Shown: positions 4,682 through 45,855 of the stretch, piece after piece
Numbering within the stretch: position 1 is the first letter of the stretch
Layout of the letters: every line of letters starts with the position of its first letter
NCBI GenBank assembly: GCA_017451025.1
Contig: JAFSSM010000054.1
Location: 1-46,116, forward strand
Length of the DNA stretch: 46,116 nucleotides
DNA from: Synergistaceae bacterium
Lineage (GTDB): Bacteria > Synergistota > Synergistia > Synergistales > Aminobacteriaceae
Reading direction: 5' to 3'
The notes under the pieces: model-generated
Databases searched by the model: none
What the model was told of the DNA's origin: nothing
Seen by the model: only the letters and a program-made list of their open reading frames with translations
Program-made: the position numbers and the translations under genes

Positions 4682-5701
4682 ATGAACGAAGTCATCAGGG
4701 CCATAAAGGAACGCAGAAGTATTCGCAGGTTCAAGCCTGACATGCCAAAGCGTGAGGACATTGACGCAATAATCGAGGCAGGGTTGTATGCGGCGAGCGG
4801 TAAGGGCAGACAGTCCCCGATAATAATTGACGTTTCAGACCCGGCATTGCGCGCAAAGATTTCACGCGACAACTGCAGAATAGGCGGCTGGCAGGAAGGC
4901 TTTGACCCGTTTTACGGTGCTCCTGTTGTTCTGGCTGTGCTTGCCGATAAGGAATGCCCGACATACATTTATGACGGCTCGCTGGTAATCGGAAACATGA
5001 TGCTTGCAGCTCATTCATTGGGACTTGGCAGCATATGGATTCACAGGGCAAAGCAGGAGTTCGAGACGGACGAATACAAAAAGATGCTGGAATCTTGGGG
5101 TGTTAAGGGCAATTATGAGGGAATAGGGCACTGCGCAACAGGCTTCATTGATTGCGAAATTCCGGAGGCAGCACCACGGCGTGAAGGAAGGGTATTTCGC
5201 GGATTTATGCCCCGAAGGTTCAGCATCAGGCCCGCTACACCCGATGACCTTGATGCAATCGCAGCTGTTGAAGCTGAATGTTTCCCTGAAGCGGAGGCGG
5301 CAACCCGTGAACAGTTCGCGTCCAGACTTGAGCACTATGCTTCTCATTTTTGGCTGATGTTCGACGGCGGAAAGCTGATCGCGTTTGTTGACGGAATGGT
5401 TAGTGATGAGCCGGACCTGAGTGATGAGATGTACGCGCACCCTGAAATGCACAACGAGTCCGGAAAATGGCAGATGATTTTCGGGGTAAACACTATTCCG
5501 GAATACAGGAGGAAGGGTTATGCGGGACAGCTAATTATGCGGGCAATAGAGGATTCGCGCAATCAGGGCAGGAAGGGAGTCGTCCTGACGTGCAAGGCTG
5601 AATTGGTGAACTGGTACGCAAAATTCGGGTTCGTGAATGAAGGAGTCAGTGAGTCAGTTCACGGCGGTGCAGTGTGGTATCAGATGAGGCTTAGCTTTTA
5701 G
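4682..5701 (+). CDS. Nitroreductase-GNAT acetyltransferase fusion protein
   Basis: 339 residues in two domains. Residues 1 to about 172 are an FMN-dependent nitroreductase fold (IRAIKERRSIRRFKPD, GLYAASGKGRQSP, LVIGNMMLAAHSLGLGSIWIHRA, GIGHCATGF). Residues about 180-339 are a GNAT domain (FSIRPATPDDLDAIAAVEAECFP, EYRRKGYAGQLIMRAIEDSRNQG with the R-x-x-G-x-A CoA loop, LVNWYAKFGFVNEG) similar to the arylalkylamine acetyltransferase-like branch. The frame is continuous with no internal ribosome site needed. It suggests reduction of a substrate coupled to acetylation, but no substrate is known. AGGAGG at 4669-4674 sets the ATG start. Its last 11 bases overlap the end of the convergent giant gene. 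Confidence 0.85.
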   Translation: MNEVIRAIKERRSIRRFKPDMPKREDIDAIIEAGLYAASGKGRQSPIIIDVSDPALRAKISRDNCRIGGWQEGFDPFYGAPVVLAVLADKECPTYIYDGSLVIGNMMLAAHSLGLGSIWIHRAKQEFETDEYKKMLESWGVKGNYEGIGHCATGFIDCEIPEAAPRREGRVFRGFMPRRFSIRPATPDDLDAIAAVEAECFPEAEAATREQFASRLEHYASHFWLMFDGGKLIAFVDGMVSDEPDLSDEMYAHPEMHNESGKWQMIFGVNTIPEYRRKGYAGQLIMRAIEDSRNQGRKGVVLTCKAELVNWYAKFGFVNEGVSESVHGGAVWYQMRLSF

Positions 5702-8700
5702 AGGACATTTTTCCTTGCAATATTAACAGTCCAAGTGCGAGTGTAACAGCATTAATCCTGAGCACAATACCACCGCATCCGCCGGAACTTTCCGGTTCAC
5801 TCTCCGGCAAGTCTTCGCCGGCTTTGGCTCCCAAGAGCGTAACGTCCATGTTCACGTCTTTGAAGCCGGTAACGTAATCATAAGCAATCTTCGCCGGAGA
5901 TTTCCCGAAGTATGCTGTGCCTGATGCCAGATCATAGTCCGCCGTAATTTCCACACCGCCGAAATCCCAAGCCTTAAGGTTGATGATGTGCTCATCCTGG
6001 ACGGCAGAGGCATTAGCCAGTTCCTCAAGGTTGAACTCGCTGGACAGCGGATAGGCGAAAGTTCTGCTCTGGTTTCCGCATTCAAGCTCCGCAAGTTGTG
6101 GGAAAATTGAGGCGTTAAATCTAGTTATGCTGTTGTTTGCGACGTTTATTCTGACGAGAGAGCTGCACCCCGAAAGTTTAAGTGAGGTGATTTTGCAGGA
6201 AGGGCATTCAAGAGTACGAAGACTTTCACACCCTGAAACGTCAATCTCCTCAAGACTGCCGCATCTGGAAGCGTCAACGTATTCTGTCTTGCTTCCGGCC
6301 AAGTTAATTGTGTTGACTGAAGGATTGTCCGCAATATCAACTCTGCTTACTGAATTATTGCCGCTTAGGTCTACTGTTTTGACAGACCTTGCGCTCGTAA
6401 GGTCAATATGCTTGAGGTTAGTGAAGCGTTCAACTCCAGAGAAGTTGTCGATGTTGTCTGCAACTTTGAGTGTCGTAACGGCTTCTATTTCCTGTGTAGT
6501 CATGGTTTGTGCTATATCCGAGAGGCTGATTTTTCCCGGAGAGGAGTCAGCTTCGCCGGTGTCCAGGTAGGAGCTTGGAGCATCTGGCACAATCTCAGCA
6601 TAAGGAGTTTGCGGTTCTGCCTGGAAGGGTTGCGTCTCTGTCTGAAGTTCTGGTTCTGTCTGGAGTTCTGGTTCCTGTTGCGTCTCTATTTCGCGGAAAA
6701 CAGGCTGAGGATTCGGTGCTGTGTCAGGGGAATTTGTGTAGACATCAGGGGCCGGTCTTGACGTAGGGGCTTCGCTTTCAGCATGAGGTGCTGTGTCGGC
6801 AGCAGGAATATTTACTGCGGTGCTGTTGTCTGGGACTGACTGGGCAGGAAGAGCATTCACATTTACAGTTATATTCTTGCTCGTTAAGACCTCGAAATTT
6901 CCGAACTTCACCGCCGCAGAAATAGGGAGGCTGTAAGTTCCGGCCTTAGCTCCTGTTTCCACGCTGAGTACTCCGTCAGAAAATGTTATGCCCTGAATAT
7001 CTGTGCTGGCTGTGCTCCAAGAAACTGCGTAATCCTGTGATGTCAGATAGGTGTAACTTCCGTCAGAGAGGTTTGCTCTGACCGTCAGGCCTGCCGCAAT
7101 TTTCCCTGAACTGCCTTCGTTCACCGAGAGATTTTCGCAGTAAATTTCTGCATCAAGCGAAACAATAGATGCCTGGCTAACAGATATGTTCACGTCCTTG
7201 CTGCAAAATGCTTCAAGAAGTGTATTATCGCCAGATACTTTTACTGCTGCGATGAACCATAATTTTTTAGCAGCTGTTTCTTTGCGTGGTGTACCTGTCA
7301 GCGTAAATTCATGATGATACGCCGAAACCACGTCATTATCGCTGTGAAATGTTGCTCCGGAAGTTTCCAGCCATTCAGGAAGTTCTTTAATGTCCAGAGA
7401 GTAAGTGTAGTTTGTGAAGCCATCAGTCAATAAAGAAATGGCCGTATCGACACAAAATGTCTGAATGAACTGAAGACATGCTGTTGCTCTGAAATCGTTT
7501 GATGCTGAAGTTATCGCCACGTCAACAGATGCAGCAACTGCGCCAGTATTATCCGTAAAAGTTGTTAATGTCGAGGTAATGCTTTCTCCATTGATGCCTG
7601 TCGTAGTACTAGGAGCTTCCTGTTTTTGCTCGATCATTAAGTTTGCTTCTGAAACATTGATAGTTACGTCAGCTTCATCATAGCCGATGTTATTAGCTGC
7701 TGTAATTTTCAGGGTGTAAATTCCAGCAGTTCCAGCTGTGGGAGTTCCCGAAATCGTGAATGTCTTATCATCAGAATATGCGCTCAGGCCGTCAGGAACG
7801 GTACCTGAATATTTCCAGGCTATATTTGTGCCTGCTGAGGCTCTGATTGTCTCGGAAAAAGCTACCCCTTCATGAACATTCCAGCTCACATTTGCAGACG
7901 GCAGGACAGGAACAGTGTCCAGAACATTAATCTTCACTGTAAGGCTGGCACTCCCTGCACTGTTTGAGGCAGTCAGCGTAGCGGTAAAAGTCTTGCCCGC
8001 GTCGTTTTCTCTGGCAGTTCCGCTAATGACGACCGCCTTATCCGCTGAGGACACACTAAATCCCGAAGGCAACTTGCCCGCAACTTTCCAGGCTATATTT
8101 GTCCCTGCTGTAGCTCTGATTGTCTGGGAAAATGCCGCCCCTTCATTTGTGTTCCAGCTCACATTTGCAGAGGGCAGGACAGGAACAGTATCCAGCACAC
8201 TAATCTTTACTGTCAGGCTGGCACTCCCTGCACTGTTCGAGGCAGTCAGTGTAGCGGTAAATGTCTTGCCTGCGTCGCCTTCTCTAGCAGTTCCGCTAAT
8301 GACGACCGCCTTATCCGCTGAGGACACACTAAATCCCGAAGGTAACTTGCCCGCAACTTTCCAGGCTATATTTGTCCCTGCTGTGGCCTTGATTGTCTGG
8401 GAAAATGCGGACCCTTCCTTTGTGTTCCAGTTTATGGTTGCAGACGGCAGGGCAGGAACAGTGTCCAGAACACTAATCTTCACTGTAAGGCTGACACTCC
8501 CTGCAGAATTTAAGGCGGTCAGTGTAGCGGTAAAAGTCTTGCCCGCGTCGCCTTCTCTGGCAGTTCCGCTTATGACGACCGCCCTATCCGATGAGGATAC
8601 ACTAAATCCCGAAGGTAACTTACCCGCAATTTTCCAGGCTATATTTGTTCCCGCTGTGGCCTTGATTGTCTGGGAAAATGCGGACCCTTCCTTTGTGTTC

Positions 8701-10505
8701 CAGTTTATGGTTGCAGACGGCAGGGCAGGAACAGTGTCCAGAACACTAATCTTTACTGTAAGGCTGACACTCCCTGCAGAATTTAAGGCGGTCAGTGTAG
8801 CGGTAAAAGTCTTGCCCGCGTCGCCTTCTCTAGCAGTTCCGCTTATGACTACCGCCTTATCCGCTGAGGATACACTAAACCCGGTAGGCAGCTTACCCGC
8901 AATTTTCCAGACTATATTTGTCCCGGCTGAGGCTCTGATTGTCTGGGAAAAAGCCGCCCCTTCATGAACATTCCAGCTCATGGTTGCAGAGGGCAGGACA
9001 GGAACGGTATCCAGAACATTAATCTTCACTGTCAGGCTGGCACTCCCTGCACTGTTCGAGGCAGTCAGTGTAGCAGTAAAAGTCTTGCCCGCGTCGCCTT
9101 CTCTAGCAGTTCCGCTTATGACGACCGCCTTATCCGTTGAGGATACACTAAATCCGGTCGGCAGCTTGCCCGCAATTTTCCAGACTATATTTGTCCCGGC
9201 TTCAAGCATTACATTCAAATTCACAGCATCTCCGGATACTGCTTTGACATCAATGCTTTCGGCAGAAATTCCCGCAGGAGCAACATCCTTCACATTCACC
9301 TCGATAATTCCATCTGCTGAAGTCTCACAATCTCTGCTGCTTACCGTTGCCTTTAACGGAAATTTATACATACCTGGCTTAGCTTCAGCAGACACTTTCA
9401 GCTTGCCGTCCTCTCTGGAAAAACTTATCCCTGTAACATCTGTGCTCGCCGTGCTCCACTCAACAAAACAGCTTTCCGCATTCAGGCCGCTAATACTTCC
9501 GTCGGTGAATTTACCCTTAACTTCCAGCTCGGCCTTAACTTCCGCAATACTGCCTGCTTCAACGGTAACAGCTTTGCTCAAAATTTTTGCATCTATCGAG
9601 ACCAGCGATGCCTCTAACACAGAGATTTTCACTTCTTTGCTGCAACTAGCAGCCAGCACAGGATTATCACCCGCTAGCCTGACATCAGCAGTAAGCATTA
9701 CGCTGACAGCCTCAGACTCTTCCGCAGGAGTCCCCTTGAGTGTGAACTCATGATGATATGTACCAGCCGCTTTGTCGTCATTGCTGGATACTTCCCCGTC
9801 AATCTCCAGCCAGTCAGGAAGTCCCTCTGCATTGAGCGAATATGTGTACTCTGTGTAATCGTTATCCGTGAGGTCCAGTTCAACGTCAACGCTGAATGTG
9901 TGTGTAAATTCAATGCCTGCAATTCCGGCCAAGTCAATGGAATCTGCCGTAATAGCGACATCTGCAGTCAGGATTGTTCTGTTGTAATTGTCGGTGAAGG
10001 TTGTTGTGGCGGAAGTTATGCTTGTTCCGGTTGTTTGGTCTGTCTCTGTTGAAGGGGCTGAAGGTATTCCGATAAATTCCCCGTCCTTATTCAGGAGTGA
10101 TGTATCTACATTGCTGCCTGTTACTGTTAATTTAATTTCCTGCTCTGTATTTCCCTCATTATTTGAAGCTGTAACTCTGTAGATGTGAGTCCCGGAACTT
10201 AATCCGGAAGGAGTACCGTTTATCGTGTAAATTTTTGTGGTGCTGTCTGCAGTTCCGGTAAGACCGTCAGGCAGGTTGTCAGCCCAAGTTATCCAGTCTC
10301 CTTTTATCGTAGTTATCTTGATTGTATTTACGGGGGCATATTTTTTGAGAGTTTGTTCTGCGTTTTCGGCTCCGAGTTCAGGCTTAAAATTGGGGATTGT
10401 TAGGGTTATTTTCATGGTGCTGGAATCCGAGTCTGATGCATAAGCTGTCTGAAATATCATCACTATGAAAAAAAGAAGCGCAAGCAGCTTATTCCTTATA
10501 CGCAT
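5691..10505 (-). CDS. Giant repeat-containing surface protein with Synerg-CTERM-like anchor
   Basis: About 1,604 residues. The order is: signal peptide (MRIRNKLLALLFFIVMIFQTAYA); a putative-Ig/cadherin-like segment; a first ~290-residue module; about six Ig-like repeats of 91 residues (roughly residues 433-955); a second copy of the ~290-residue module (shared features such as TYSL, AYHHEFTL, SWSTASTD); a Pro/Glu/Gln-rich linker; leucine-rich repeats (~1340-1485, for example LKHIDLTSARSVKTVDLSG); and a C-terminal SSGGCGG motif, hydrophobic segment and short basic tail. That tail resembles the Synerg-CTERM sorting signal. It is probably an adhesin or structural surface protein. Start ATG 10505 is preferred over ATG 10514 because of the distance to a GGGGGT ribosome site. 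It is downstream of a small secreted protein and an asparagine-synthase-like gene. Confidence 0.85.
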   Translation of the reverse strand: MRIRNKLLALLFFIVMIFQTAYASDSDSSTMKITLTIPNFKPELGAENAEQTLKKYAPVNTIKITTIKGDWITWADNLPDGLTGTADSTTKIYTINGTPSGLSSGTHIYRVTASNNEGNTEQEIKLTVTGSNVDTSLLNKDGEFIGIPSAPSTETDQTTGTSITSATTTFTDNYNRTILTADVAITADSIDLAGIAGIEFTHTFSVDVELDLTDNDYTEYTYSLNAEGLPDWLEIDGEVSSNDDKAAGTYHHEFTLKGTPAEESEAVSVMLTADVRLAGDNPVLAASCSKEVKISVLEASLVSIDAKILSKAVTVEAGSIAEVKAELEVKGKFTDGSISGLNAESCFVEWSTASTDVTGISFSREDGKLKVSAEAKPGMYKFPLKATVSSRDCETSADGIIEVNVKDVAPAGISAESIDVKAVSGDAVNLNVMLEAGTNIVWKIAGKLPTGFSVSSTDKAVVISGTAREGDAGKTFTATLTASNSAGSASLTVKINVLDTVPVLPSATMSWNVHEGAAFSQTIRASAGTNIVWKIAGKLPTGFSVSSADKAVVISGTAREGDAGKTFTATLTALNSAGSVSLTVKISVLDTVPALPSATINWNTKEGSAFSQTIKATAGTNIAWKIAGKLPSGFSVSSSDRAVVISGTAREGDAGKTFTATLTALNSAGSVSLTVKISVLDTVPALPSATINWNTKEGSAFSQTIKATAGTNIAWKVAGKLPSGFSVSSADKAVVISGTAREGDAGKTFTATLTASNSAGSASLTVKISVLDTVPVLPSANVSWNTNEGAAFSQTIRATAGTNIAWKVAGKLPSGFSVSSADKAVVISGTARENDAGKTFTATLTASNSAGSASLTVKINVLDTVPVLPSANVSWNVHEGVAFSETIRASAGTNIAWKYSGTVPDGLSAYSDDKTFTISGTPTAGTAGIYTLKITAANNIGYDEADVTINVSEANLMIEQKQEAPSTTTGINGESITSTLTTFTDNTGAVAASVDVAITSASNDFRATACLQFIQTFCVDTAISLLTDGFTNYTYSLDIKELPEWLETSGATFHSDNDVVSAYHHEFTLTGTPRKETAAKKLWFIAAVKVSGDNTLLEAFCSKDVNISVSQASIVSLDAEIYCENLSVNEGSSGKIAAGLTVRANLSDGSYTYLTSQDYAVSWSTASTDIQGITFSDGVLSVETGAKAGTYSLPISAAVKFGNFEVLTSKNITVNVNALPAQSVPDNSTAVNIPAADTAPHAESEAPTSRPAPDVYTNSPDTAPNPQPVFREIETQQEPELQTEPELQTETQPFQAEPQTPYAEIVPDAPSSYLDTGEADSSPGKISLSDIAQTMTTQEIEAVTTLKVADNIDNFSGVERFTNLKHIDLTSARSVKTVDLSGNNSVSRVDIADNPSVNTINLAGSKTEYVDASRCGSLEEIDVSGCESLRTLECPSCKITSLKLSGCSSLVRINVANNSITRFNASIFPQLAELECGNQSRTFAYPLSSEFNLEELANASAVQDEHIINLKAWDFGGVEITADYDLASGTAYFGKSPAKIAYDYVTGFKDVNMDVTLLGAKAGEDLPESEPESSGGCGGIVLRINAVTLALGLLILQGKMSSKS
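7830..9210 (-). repeat. Tandem 273-bp repeats encoding Ig-like domains
   Basis: The same landmark (tcttgcc on the plus strand) recurs at 7991, 8264, 8537, 8810 and 9083, exactly 273 bases apart, equal to 91 codons. Five close units plus a more diverged one lie in frame inside the giant surface gene. Near-identical units of this size can recombine, changing protein length without shifting the frame. Confidence 0.92.
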
Positions 10506-10523
10506 AAAGAACATTACCCCCAG

Positions 10524-37827: not shown

Positions 37828-38133
37828 TTAAATAAATACCCCCCCCCCGATAATTTTACGTATTGACGCAGATTCTTCCGGATTGCTGGAATTATCGGCG
37901 ACAAGATAAACATACGGACGCTGAAAATATTTCTGAAGCCTGCTCATTTGCTGGGATATTACCTCTGAATTGTTGAACGCTACAGTTAAGATACACAGCT
38001 CCGCATTGATGATTTTCTCAACATTAAAGCTGTCCAGTGCGTCCATTTTGTAGAATTTTTCCTCAGCATTACTCAATAAGTGCCGGTGCACCCTTCTTTT
38101 CAATCCGGCAACATAACCGCGAATCATGCTCAT
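37828..38133 (-). CDS. Phase-OFF glycosyltransferase, N-terminal part
   Basis: 101 residues starting at ATG 38133 behind AGAGGAGG. After a basic leader it has the start of a family 2-like glycosyltransferase (AELCILTVAFNNSEVISQQM, YVYLVADNSSNPEESA), then reaches the G10 tract and ends in an out-of-frame VFI and stop. In the present state the product is truncated before the DxD motif. It lies between a PTS terminator and the flavin reductase. It probably acts on a surface glycan or flagellin; the acceptor is unknown. Confidence 0.78.
   Translation of the reverse strand: MSMIRGYVAGLKRRVHRHLLSNAEEKFYKMDALDSFNVEKIINAELCILTVAFNNSEVISQQMSRLQKYFQRPYVYLVADNSSNPEESASIRKIIGGGVFI
37839..37848. repeat. 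C10 homopolymer (G10 in the glycosyltransferase coding strand)
   Basis: Ten consecutive C on the plus strand lie inside the glycosyltransferase frame. Ten G puts the frame out; eleven or eight restores it. Long G/C tracts are classic slippage sites. Confidence 0.95.
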
Positions 38134-42037: not shown

Positions 42038-43377
42038 TTCACCGCTCACATAACATTGACATGCTTCACGGTTCCCTTCTCGACAAGATACTAATCTTTG
42101 CCCTGCCCTTAGCCGCCAGCATGATGCTTCAGCAGCTCTTCAACTCCGCAGACGTTGCCGTAGTCGGACGCTTCGACTCTCCCCAGGCAATGGCCGCAGT
42201 CGGCAGCAACGGAGCCGCAATCAACCTCATGATTAACCTATTCGTGGGACTCTCGATCGGCGCAAACGTCATTGTTGCCCGCTGTATCGGCAGAAACGAA
42301 AAGGCCGGGATTCACGACGCAGTTCATACAGCTATAGCACTGGCACTTATCGGCGGAGTGATTCTCGTTGCGTGGGGCCTGGCTATGGCGCGCACAATCT
42401 TGACCATGATGGACACACCCGACGACATAATCGAGCTTGCGGTTGTGTACTTCAGAATATATTTCTTGGGAGCACCGTTCATCATGCTCTACAATTTCGG
42501 TGCGGCGATTCTCAGGAGCAAGGGCGACAGCAGAAGGCCGTTAATCTCTCTTGCGGCGGGCGGCATCATCAACGTAATCCTCAACCTGATATTCGTCGTG
42601 GGCTTCAGGTTAAGCGTCGTGGGAGTTGCGCTTGCTACGGTAATCTCCAACGTGATCAGCTCCTTGATGATTATGCGCTGGCTGATGAGCGAGGAAGCAC
42701 CCTTCACCTTCCGGCCAAGTGAACTTATGCTCGGAAAAAGCTACGTAATCGAAATTCTGAAGGTCGGACTCCCTGCCGGAATACAAGGCTCCCTGTTCTC
42801 AATCTCGAACGTTTGCATTCAGACAGCCATCAACCGGATCGGCTCTTATGCTTCGGCGGGAAGTGCTGCTGCGCTGAACTATGACTTCATCGTGTACTAC
42901 ATAGTTGCGGCGTTCACTCAGGCGGCGGTAACTTTCACGTCCCAGAATTTCGGCGCGGGGAACTACAAGCGTTGCGACAGGGTATTTGCTGTGAGTATGT
43001 GCGCGGGCGTGGGTTTTACGGGGCTTGCGTGCCTTGTGTGCTACGTGTGGTGCACTCCGCTACTGAGCTTCTACACGGTCAGCCCTGAAGTCCTGAGCTA
43101 CGGAGAGATCCGAATGATTCACGTTGTGGCGTTCCTGTGGATGACGAACATCTACGAGATTAGCGGGGGATGCCTGCGCGGAATGGGACACTCAACGCTT
43201 CCGTCTGTGATGGTGCTGCTAGGGTGCTGTGCGTTGAGGATAGTGTGGGTGTACACGGTTTTTGCGGCACACCACGACTTCACTACGCTGATGAATGTTT
43301 ACCCTCTGTCTTGGCTGATAACGAGCATAGGGACTCTTCTTGCGTACTACATAATCAGGAAGAAGAGGTTTGCATAA
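42034..43377 (+). CDS. MATE-family efflux transporter
   Basis: 447 residues, the usual MATE length, with twelve membrane segments in two halves: ILIFALPLAASMMLQQLFNSADVAVVGRF at the start, GLSIGANVIVARCIGRNEK, and the second-half VGLPAGIQGSLFSISNVCIQTAINRIG and FTSQNFGAGNYKR. It exports drugs or metabolites using Na+ or H+. ATG 42034 overlaps the NYN stop; a longer frame lies inside that gene. The stop codon TAA at 43375 is the first part of the sigma-28-type promoter for the flagellin locus. Confidence 0.94.
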   Translation: MIHRSHNIDMLHGSLLDKILIFALPLAASMMLQQLFNSADVAVVGRFDSPQAMAAVGSNGAAINLMINLFVGLSIGANVIVARCIGRNEKAGIHDAVHTAIALALIGGVILVAWGLAMARTILTMMDTPDDIIELAVVYFRIYFLGAPFIMLYNFGAAILRSKGDSRRPLISLAAGGIINVILNLIFVVGFRLSVVGVALATVISNVISSLMIMRWLMSEEAPFTFRPSELMLGKSYVIEILKVGLPAGIQGSLFSISNVCIQTAINRIGSYASAGSAAALNYDFIVYYIVAAFTQAAVTFTSQNFGAGNYKRCDRVFAVSMCAGVGFTGLACLVCYVWCTPLLSFYTVSPEVLSYGEIRMIHVVAFLWMTNIYEISGGCLRGMGHSTLPSVMVLLGCCALRIVWVYTVFAAHHDFTTLMNVYPLSWLITSIGTLLAYYIIRKKRFA

Positions 43378-43402
43378 AGTGGATATAGACTGCCTCCGAT
43401 AA
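43375..43402 (+). promoter_or_regulatory. Sigma-28 (FliA)-type flagellin promoter
   Basis: TAAAGT at 43375-43380 and CCGATAA at 43396-43402 match the flagellar sigma-28 consensus (TAAA, then about 16 bases, CCGATAA); the gap here is 17. It lies immediately upstream of the leader peptide and flagellin, and overlaps the MATE stop codon. Confidence 0.75.
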
Positions 43403-43436
43403 TTAAATAACCCAAAATTTCAGGAGGCTTTCTTTC

Positions 43437-43517
43437 ATGGACGTAGTACGTAATTTGCGTAAAGGGGGGGGGGGCTACACAAGTAGCTCTGCTCTCCTAG
43501 AAGGAGGGTTATTATGA
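43437..43517 (+). CDS. Flagellin leader peptide containing a G11 tract
   Basis: 26 residues (MDVVRNLRKGGGGYTSSSAL, then LEGGLL), with AGGAGG 9 bases before ATG 43437. Its TGA overlaps the flagellin ATG as ATGA (43514-43517). With 11 G the leader frame runs through the hairpin that hides the flagellin ribosome site and ends on the flagellin start. With 12 G it would stop at TAG 43484-43486, before the hairpin; with 10 G at the TAG 43498-43500 inside it. It is too short for automatic gene calling. The strong ribosome site, position behind a sigma-28 promoter and exact overlap argue that it is translated and couples flagellin expression to the tract length. Confidence 0.65.
   Translation: MDVVRNLRKGGGGYTSSSALLEGGLL
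43464..43474. repeat. G11 homopolymer in the flagellin leader
   Basis: Eleven consecutive G on the plus strand, inside the leader peptide frame (codons 10-13). Tracts this long slip readily during replication. Confidence 0.95.
43492..43508 (+). promoter_or_regulatory. Hairpin sequestering the flagellin ribosome binding site
   Basis: CTCTCCT (43492-43498) can pair with AGGAGGG (43502-43508) across a three-base loop, with one T-G pair, hiding the whole AGGAGG that serves ATG 43514. Ribosomes reading the leader would open it. Confidence 0.6.
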
Positions 43518-45292
43518 GGATTCTCAATAATCTTCCTGCACTTCATGCATTCACATCACTGAATAAAACCAACAAAGCACTTCAGAAGACCATCAATGCT
43601 CTATCAACTGGGTTGCGCATAAATTCTTCCGCCGATGACGCTGCGGGATTTGCGATAAGCGAGAGGATGCGTTCGCAGATTTCGGGGCTTGATGTTGCGG
43701 TCAGGAACACTCAGGACGGAATAAGCCTGCTTCAGACAGCCGAAGGGGCACTTGGCCAGACGAACAGTATGCTACAGCGAATGATGGAGCTAGCGATTCA
43801 GGCGAGCAGTGATTCGCTGACGAGCCAGGACAGGAGTTATCTTCAGCTGGAGATTGACGAACTGAAGGACCAGATTGACAGGATTGCGGGAACGACGCAG
43901 TTCAACAAGAAGCGTATTTTGGACGGGAGTAGTGGGGCGTTGTGGTCGAGCGATGACCTGAACGTTAAGGCGAAGATTCACGGAGGGCTGGTAACTGTTG
44001 ATGAGTTCGGACAGAAGGTGAACCACGAGGGGAATTTCCGGATCGAGGTTAGTGCTGAGCCTGGATTGCCGCAGGTGCAGAAGAGCAATATCATGCACTT
44101 TACCGAAACAATAACTTCTGTTGAGAACATTATTACTGAAGTGGATCCGCCTACATCAACCGCTCGTGTCGTATTTGTGATTGATGTATCTGGGTCTATG
44201 GGCGGCGAACTCCAGAAGGTCAAGGATAATATTGCCTCCTTCAAGAGCAAAATTGAAGCTGGCGGAGTAGATAGTGTCGAAATCGGAATATGTACATATG
44301 GCACTAATGATGCGTATGATCCAAATTTTGTAGCATACACATACCCAGATGGTTCTTTATGGTCGTCCGATACTAGTGCAATTACAACTCTACTAGAACC
44401 GGTAACTGCTCCCTATGGTTGGGATACGTATAATTATTATGCTGTCCAGAAAGCCGCAGAAACATACAATGATTCCTACGGCACTAACCGTTATATGATT
44501 CTTGTAACAGATGTAGATCACACATATGGTGAAGGTTGGACTGCTCCAATCGGTTCTAAGGAAATATATACGGAAGCTACTCTTAGGTCAGCACTTGAAA
44601 GCGATCCCACAACAGATAAAGATAATATAAAACTTTCTGTAATCTCCCCTAATCCTGATAGAACTTCGGAATTCTATAACTTAGTTAGTGATTCTGGAGG
44701 CAGTATGCTTATGGCAGGGACTGACTGGAGCGATGACCTTAATGTTCTGGCTGATGATATAGCAGAGACCACAGAAACCGATAAAATCATAGATAATGTC
44801 GCGGAATCGTCATTCTCCACTATTGGCAGTATGTCTGCTTTCTATAATGTGAACGGTGTATCTTTAGTCTCTAAGCCTCAAACCCTCACCATCACTCAGG
44901 GAAACGGCAACTCTACTTCCGTCACTCTCTACGAGACCGATACTCTCCAAGACGTAGCCGACAAAATTAACTCAGCAATTGCCGACGGACTCGGTCAGGC
45001 CAAGTACACCAACAACCGCGAAAAATTCTGCACAATATCCGACGGCACAGAAGGTACTTCTGAATCCGTCTACGACCGTCAGCCCATATACGACTCCTAC
45101 GGCAACATCATAGGCTACGATGTCTACGCAACCATGCTCGTACGTTCCGCAATACCCGGCAAAGACGGCGAACTCTACACTTCTCCGGCGATGACGACCT
45201 CCTCCGTGCACTCGGCCTCAACACAATTCAAGAGTCCACCGAATCCACATTCACCGCCTCTGTCTACAACGCTCACTCCGGAAAAATCGTAA
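43514..45292 (+). CDS. Flagellin with inserted von Willebrand factor A domain (N-terminal part)
   Basis: 592 codons in this frame. Residues 1 to about 145 are a normal flagellin D0/D1 domain (STGLRINSSADDAAGFAISERM, NTQDGISLLQTAEGAL, FNKKRILDGS). Residues about 218-430 are a VWA domain: VVFVIDVSGSMGGE with MIDAS D224, S226 and S228, a threonine region ICTYGTND and an acidic VTDVDHTYG. Then flagellin-type sequence resumes (LTITQGNGN, LYETDTLQDVADKINSAI). The frame is lost near 45176-45181 and the rest of this frame is out-of-frame tail. The C-terminal flagellin domain is in the next entry. The VWA region is AT-rich (21 G+C of 60 at 44281-44340) compared with the flanks (33 of 60 at 43681-43740; 35 of 60 at 45361-45420), as if recently acquired. 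Confidence 0.88.
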   Translation: MRILNNLPALHAFTSLNKTNKALQKTINALSTGLRINSSADDAAGFAISERMRSQISGLDVAVRNTQDGISLLQTAEGALGQTNSMLQRMMELAIQASSDSLTSQDRSYLQLEIDELKDQIDRIAGTTQFNKKRILDGSSGALWSSDDLNVKAKIHGGLVTVDEFGQKVNHEGNFRIEVSAEPGLPQVQKSNIMHFTETITSVENIITEVDPPTSTARVVFVIDVSGSMGGELQKVKDNIASFKSKIEAGGVDSVEIGICTYGTNDAYDPNFVAYTYPDGSLWSSDTSAITTLLEPVTAPYGWDTYNYYAVQKAAETYNDSYGTNRYMILVTDVDHTYGEGWTAPIGSKEIYTEATLRSALESDPTTDKDNIKLSVISPNPDRTSEFYNLVSDSGGSMLMAGTDWSDDLNVLADDIAETTETDKIIDNVAESSFSTIGSMSAFYNVNGVSLVSKPQTLTITQGNGNSTSVTLYETDTLQDVADKINSAIADGLGQAKYTNNREKFCTISDGTEGTSESVYDRQPIYDSYGNIIGYDVYATMLVRSAIPGKDGELYTSPAMTTSSVHSASTQFKSPPNPHSPPLSTTLTPEKS

Positions 45293-45855
45293 CCTCAAAC
45301 GCAAAAGCTACCGGCCAAGAATTTGTGAGCCTCATTCCTCCCGAAATCGACATCGAGGTTGACGCAATGGCCGGACTCGCCGCAAATTGGGACGAGAACA
45401 CCAGGCAATTCATGATGGCCACCAAAAACGTCTACACCGCAATGCTCCACCTCAAGAACAACGGCACAATCTTCCAGACCGGCGGAAACATGGGCGAGGA
45501 CTTCATGATTGATCTCGGCGACTCTTCCTGCGACGCACTCAACCTCTCCCGCGTGAATGTCGTTACCCGCGAGACAGCCTCCCGCTCAATCGGCATACTT
45601 GACCGTGCGATTCACGCCATAGCCTCACAGCGAGCGAAGATAGGCTCATACGAAAATGCACTCGACCGCACAATGGAGAACCTGACGATTACCAGCACCA
45701 ACCTGACCGACGCAGACTCCAGAATACGCGACCTCGATATGGCCTCAACCATGATGGACTTCGTGCGCCTGCAAATCCTGAACCAGTCGGGTACGTCAAT
45801 GCTTGCGCAGGCTAACCAGATGCCCAATTCTGTGCTAAGTCTTCTGCAGGGGTAA
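45181..45855 (+). CDS. Flagellin C-terminal domain, frameshifted from the preceding part
   Basis: The frame from 45181 to TAA at 45855 reads FSGDDDLLRALGLNTIQEST, hook-region sequence, and then the C-terminal D1/D0 flagellin helices (TASRSIGILDRAIHAIASQRAKIGSYENALDRT, TNLTDADSRIRDLDMASTMM, and the end SMLAQANQMPNSVLSLLQG). These are needed for filament assembly. The first ATG in frame is not preceded by a ribosome site, so this is the end of the upstream flagellin gene. Reading TACAC at 45176-45180 as TAC (removing one AC) joins the two frames as GELYFSGDDD. It may be a mutation, an assembly error, or another switch. Confidence 0.82.
   Translation, partial: FSGDDDLLRALGLNTIQESTESTFTASVYNAHSGKIVTSNAKATGQEFVSLIPPEIDIEVDAMAGLAANWDENTRQFMMATKNVYTAMLHLKNNGTIFQTGGNMGEDFMIDLGDSSCDALNLSRVNVVTRETASRSIGILDRAIHAIASQRAKIGSYENALDRTMENLTITSTNLTDADSRIRDLDMASTMMDFVRLQILNQSGTSMLAQANQMPNSVLSLLQG

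Follow-up and report, generated by a model that had tools for sequence, protein, structure and literature searches.

In other proteins, the von Willebrand factor A (VWA) fold grips ligands via a metal ion, and VWA pilus adhesins sit at the pilus tip or serve as minor pilus subunits. Flagellins, for their part, need their N-terminus for export and packing. The insertion of a domain into flagellin is well documented for a metallopeptidase; in flagellinolysin, a metallopeptidase-bearing flagellin, the functional domain lies in the central hypervariable part (PMC5595980; PMC7643111). Homopolymer phase variation of surface genes has been described in Campylobacter and Neisseria (PMC6321876; PMC5084427), and among frame transitions, phase variation and translational coupling have been classed separately (PMC3711429). 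In the literature searched we came across no VWA flagellin, although one may have been described elsewhere; one paper names VWA and flagellin in close context, there as separate genes.

The flagellin gene described here lies in a window of 46,116 nt (the whole stretch of DNA analysed), which spans contig C40 from end to end; the contig is one of 62 in the 2.35 Mb, 97.6% complete genome of a gut-type Synergistaceae bacterium. For comparison we used a phylum set of 185 Synergistota species genomes, in which the bacterium's own genus is represented by 43 species genomes. A close-relative search also turned up a relative of the gene in the genome of an uncultured member of the Synergistales from red deer.

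A VWA domain between flagellin domains

The gene (43514-45855, plus strand) encodes Flagellin_N, VWA and then Flagellin_C (Table 1). An earlier note on this DNA, made from the sequence alone, had proposed that a flagellin here carries a VWA domain, and the PF00092 match bears this out, lying between the two flagellin ends and exceeding the curated cut-off. The isolated segment matched with E 2.3e-8 and VWA_2 also matched the window flagellin (E 2.1e-6, both Pfam). The gene end near 44850 given in the same note proved too early, however, as the N-terminal frame forms an ORF of 592 aa at 43514-45292 and the frame of the C-terminal domain runs to 45855. Common flagellin sequence restarts at the Flagellin_IN-like motif, and this C-terminal junction is found in relatives as well. 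No HExxH motif was present in either frame of the window flagellin, and a Pfam scan of it gave no peptidase family.

Table 1. Features of the flagellin locus, in order of position in the window
Feature	Position	Strand	Evidence
Sigma-28-like promoter, TAAAGTGG-N12-TCCGATA, preceding the leader ORF	43375..43401	+	Pattern match
Leader Shine-Dalgarno sequence, AGGAGG	43422..43427	+	Sequence; other leaders share the layout
Leader ORF, 26 codons, MDVVRNLRKGGGGYTSSSALLEGGLL, ATG at 43437	43437..43517	+	TGA overlaps the flagellin ATG (ATGA)
Poly-G tract of the leader ORF, 11 G	43464..43474	+	Sequence
Predicted RNA stems holding the flagellin Shine-Dalgarno sequence (43502-43507) and start codon	43490..43540	+	RNA fold
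Flagellin_N (D0/D1) domain, residues 3-139	43520..43930	+	PF00669, E 2.2e-43
VWA domain, residues 219-406	44168..44731	+	PF00092, E 9.1e-8; model and fold matches; alignment of relatives
MIDAS loop 1, D224-V-S226-G-S228	44183..44197	+	Invariant in 12/12
Thr305, tentative MIDAS loop-2 Thr	44426..44428	+	Alignments; not kept in the wider family
MIDAS loop 3, Asp333 of L-V-T-D (residues 330-333)	44510..44512	+	T-D invariant in 12/12
Flagellin_IN-like motif, residues 457-488	44882..44977	+	PF07196, E 0.0015 (curated cut-off not reached)
Coding-frame change in this assembly	45170..45195	+	Three-frame translations; relatives read through in one frame
Flagellin_C domain, second frame (ORF stop 45855)	45592..45846	+	PF00700, E 1.6e-24

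The base composition of the gene is uneven. The central insert has a GC content of 0.41 and a GC3 of 0.33, compared to 0.51 and 0.60 in the upstream flank and 0.52 and 0.62 in the downstream flank, and no comparable dip was seen in any of the six other flagellin genes of the genome. The two flanks are also unlike each other, with third-position G and C of 0.41 and 0.19 in one versus 0.06 and 0.56 in the other, suggesting that the gene is a mosaic. The AT-richness of the insert had been noted before and taken as a sign of recent acquisition. The composition stands, but the VWA cassettes are widespread and diverged within the genus (see below), and the donor is therefore likely to have been a relative rather than an unrelated organism.

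Homology to relatives follows the first frame until ~45180 and the other frame afterwards, up to the stop at 45855; residues of the ORF to 45292 that lie past ~45180 are thus out of frame. In relatives, Flagellin_C is in the same continuous frame with no break. If real, the change would cost the protein the C-terminal domain needed for polymerisation, and polymerisation would be abolished. The window gene might accordingly be a decaying pseudogene or a silent copy, with only the copies of relatives being functional, and its position next to a truncated rRNA operon at the contig end could be taken in the same sense. The contig ends, from ~46010, in what looks like the 5' portion of a 16S rRNA gene, a fragment absent from the Rfam results for the whole window (two tRNAs only, at the gathering threshold); rRNA genes are common break points of metagenome contigs. 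Against decay, the ~220 codons past the frame change stay stop-free and include a strong Flagellin_C match, indicating that the change is either a very recent lesion or a metagenome assembly error, and the leader of the gene is in the coupled length class (see below). We regard decay or silencing of the window copy as unlikely on balance and favor reading the gene as that of an accessory flagellin with a VWA central region.

MIDAS residues and predicted fold

All 12 aligned VWA domains match PF00092 (best E 1.1e-11), and those of the relatives are 27-59% identical to the window copy. Residues D224, S226, S228, T332 and D333 are invariant among the 12; the DVSGS motif of loop 1 is exactly at residues 224-228, where an intact MIDAS had been pointed out in the earlier note. 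The candidate loop-2 Thr is found in the window copy and its two nearest relatives and is replaced in the long-class relatives; Thr305 aligns near a Thr of phage VWA domains.

Sequence-profile matches of the domain included collagen VI A domains, mussel PTMP1, Mfa5 and integrin alpha. While a single-sequence structure model was useless (pLDDT 36), an AF2 model built from a 16-row alignment, which included 15 VWA domains from viral contigs, had a pLDDT of 68 and a pTM of 0.68, with the strand and helix order as expected. VWA folds predominate among the structure matches of this model, with integrin I domains, VWF A1, the pilus adhesins PilB and SpaC, and other VWA proteins matching at Z 10.4-11.6. 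Structure prediction had been named as a check on the VWA proposal, and the model supports rather than proves an alternating beta/alpha, Rossmann-like VWA fold; the result is not fully independent, since the alignment itself consisted of VWA domains. On viral contigs, the nearest VWA domains (L143, L144 and L145) are within very long phage-like proteins, and no flagellin was found there.

Distribution of VWA flagellins in Synergistota

Counting as carriers the genomes with a VWA domain in one protein with Flagellin_N and/or Flagellin_C, we detected VWA flagellins in 15 of the 185 Synergistota species genomes. Fourteen of the carriers are in the bacterium's own genus, and the fifteenth (G064) belongs to a different genus of the same family; in G031 and G064 the copies run off the end of a contig, such that only the part from VWA to the C-terminus is visible. 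With the insert as query, matches were obtained in 17 of 81 family genomes. A profile of the 12 aligned VWA domains gave matches in 20 of 185 phylum genomes and clearly separated the VWA domains of flagellins (E <1e-33) from those of other proteins (E >1e-22).

The search for further VWA flagellins, which the earlier note had also suggested, revealed two architectures across these 15 species: a short one of ~710-790 aa with VWA straight after the N-terminal junction, the type found in the window, and a long one of ~1050-1220 aa with VWA nested in a larger central domain. The five short-class domains form one group in the VWA domain tree (100/99). An assembly chimera was ruled out, since homologues in other species, from independent genomes, have the same N-terminal junction (QVQKS/T, then NIM or similar) together with VWA.

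When flagellins were arranged in a tree by their N-termini, VWA was missing from two conserved clades, which comprise 25 rows, and the VWA flagellins sat among divergent accessory flagellins. The VWA label changes six times on this tree at the simplest, and at least twice by supported branches, which points to exchange of the VWA cassette between flagellin backbones. Across the genus, the same junctions enclose VWA, beta-helix or unassigned central modules; beta-helix repeats (PF18889) are found in other accessory flagellins, including one of the window genome (L037), and another flagellin of that genome (L035) has a weak PF18889 match. By their sequences, the VWA flagellins belong to a divergent accessory class beside the conserved flagellins, with other members carrying swapped central domains. 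Separately, we noted four tandem flagellin genes on one contig of another genome (L063, G043:C33).

The same variability could mean that VWA is merely a variable surface module, exchanged for immune or phage escape and without a specific ligand. Within the genus the central region varies greatly and takes several module types between the same junctions, the VWA label changes as described above, and the loop-2 Thr of the MIDAS is not conserved, all of which would fit such a module. DxSxS and the loop-3 Asp, in contrast, are invariant in 12 of 12 domains while most of the domain diverges, and this counts against a mere spacer, which would not require them. We therefore consider a module without a ligand quite unlikely, and retain the reading of VWA as a metal-dependent binding domain.

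A poly-G leader ORF upstream of the flagellin gene

Upstream of the flagellin start is a short leader ORF with its own Shine-Dalgarno sequence, preceded by a match that we take to be a flagellar promoter, by the known sigma-28 consensus (Table 1). With a tract of G11, the leader stops on the flagellin ATG, whereas in the other two length classes it would stop 13 or 27 nt earlier. The leader thus combines a run of at least eight identical bases in frame with a frame-dependent outcome, two marks of a homopolymer phase-variable gene, and as assembled it reads as the "on" (coupled) length class.

RNA folding of 43418-43540 predicted strong pairing around the flagellin start (z -5.2). The start regions of leader-bearing flagellins were less accessible than those of others (mean 0.32 vs 0.45, p 0.018), a modest difference, with one of the control rows (L091) almost identical to a remnant that bears a leader; low accessibility of the start is what translational coupling would require.

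We scanned the 43 genus genomes for a Shine-Dalgarno sequence, ATG and G8, and found matches in 16, compared to five positions in two genomes for a reversed control pattern. Leaders with a Shine-Dalgarno sequence, ATG and G8-G13 precede flagellin genes in seven further species, giving eight with the window, one of which (L116) precedes a truncated flagellin copy. Comparing G tracts across species, with one genome per species, exactly one frame was open to ATGA in seven of the eight leader genes, or in five of six independent leaders when close orthologues were counted once; dinucleotide shuffles put the chance of a sole open frame to ATGA at 0.16-0.23 per gene. The stop at ATGA is itself given, because these flagellins begin ATGAGR, but the sole open frame is not. 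In the exception (L103), the leader overruns the flagellin start by a few codons without ending on ATGA; apart from L103, only the window copy is in the coupled length class. A leader G tract was found in none of the 25 rows of the two conserved flagellin clades versus 6 of the 26 other rows. Several non-flagellin genes have a G tract in their own first codons, which is the ordinary form of phase variation. A leader open in one length class is what phase variation through translational coupling would predict. That the tract, if active, is instead a transcription spacer is rather unlikely: homopolymer tracts are abundant in the window genome and promoter-spacer tracts control transcription in other bacteria, but the tract here is downstream of the sigma-28-like promoter, within a leader having its own Shine-Dalgarno sequence and ATG, and the sole open frame recurs in most independent leaders despite its low chance in each.

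Other G tracts and neighboring genes

The window genome (G000) has 242 G10 positions, the highest number among the 81 family genomes, and ~300 overlapping G9 positions in its 2.35 Mb; these tracts give Synergistaceae a sizeable stock of potential contingency loci. At 37839-37848 of the window (minus strand), a 10-G tract splits a gene, and the frames before and after it fail to join, as in an "off" phase-variable gene; a sugar-related, glycosyltransferase-like product would be our guess from the sequence. Elsewhere in the genome (L120, G000:C19:6898-6960, minus strand), the initial codons of a gene whose product reads as LicD-type phosphotransferase-like contain a 14-G tract, in the open frame. 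At L116 (G026:C59, reversed), the G-tract leader is followed by a ~50-codon flagellin N-terminal remnant and then by a gene starting MSVWSLQIH, with a full flagellin lacking a leader further downstream; at L140, the same MSVW-type protein comes after a G-tract leader. Another gene of the window, on the minus strand at 5694-10514, codes for a probable surface protein of 1607 residues, in which leucine-rich repeats accompany seven putative Ig (He_PIG) repeats.

A model for the VWA flagellin

We think it fairly probable that the gene encodes an accessory flagellin whose VWA/MIDAS central region acts as a displayed metal-dependent adhesin, switched by the poly-G tract via translational coupling. 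According to this model, a VWA domain and its MIDAS metal site would make up the surface-exposed central D2/D3 region. The subunits would be exported and polymerised like other flagellins, and the VWA domains would stand out from the filament and use the metal site to bind a ligand, thereby making the flagellum a multivalent adhesin. The polymer might be directed at host or mucus ligands, as the earlier note envisaged. Slippage at the leader G tract would turn flagellin production on and off by translational coupling and, since the tract is in the leader and not in the gene, would leave the flagellin N-terminus unaltered.

If this reading of the VWA domain is right, repetition of an integrin-like domain would turn the flagellum into a multivalent adhesin that is possibly metal-dependent, and the leader arrangement, if true, would allow phase variation of a protein that tolerates no change at its N-terminus. 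A swimming organelle may thus double as a switchable sticky surface. More tentatively, the genus might combine housekeeping flagellins with an accessory repertoire of exchangeable ligand-binding domains, some of them stochastically switched by a poly-G leader ORF coupled in translation to the unaltered flagellin start; cells would then differ in the binding domain that coats their flagella.

Comparison with known systems

The window gene belongs neither to the flagellinolysins, which are nearest by architecture, nor to the VWA pilus adhesins, which are nearest by domain. As in flagellinolysin, a putatively functional domain takes the place of the central hypervariable flagellin part and would be displayed along the filament, but the insert of flagellinolysin is a metallopeptidase, whereas that of the window gene is a VWA fold without HExxH. 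SpaC of Lactobacillus rhamnosus, PilB of Streptococcus sanguinis and the minor fimbrium subunit Mfa5 likewise place VWA and MIDAS on a surface filament; these adhesins are tip or minor pilus subunits, while the window VWA is part of flagellin, the repeating flagellar subunit. As for the G tracts of Campylobacter and Neisseria, slippage would shift the frame, and there are many tracts per genome. In those bacteria the tracts are inside the gene, whereas the flagellin tract belongs to a leader ORF of its own, whose stop falls on the flagellin start codon.
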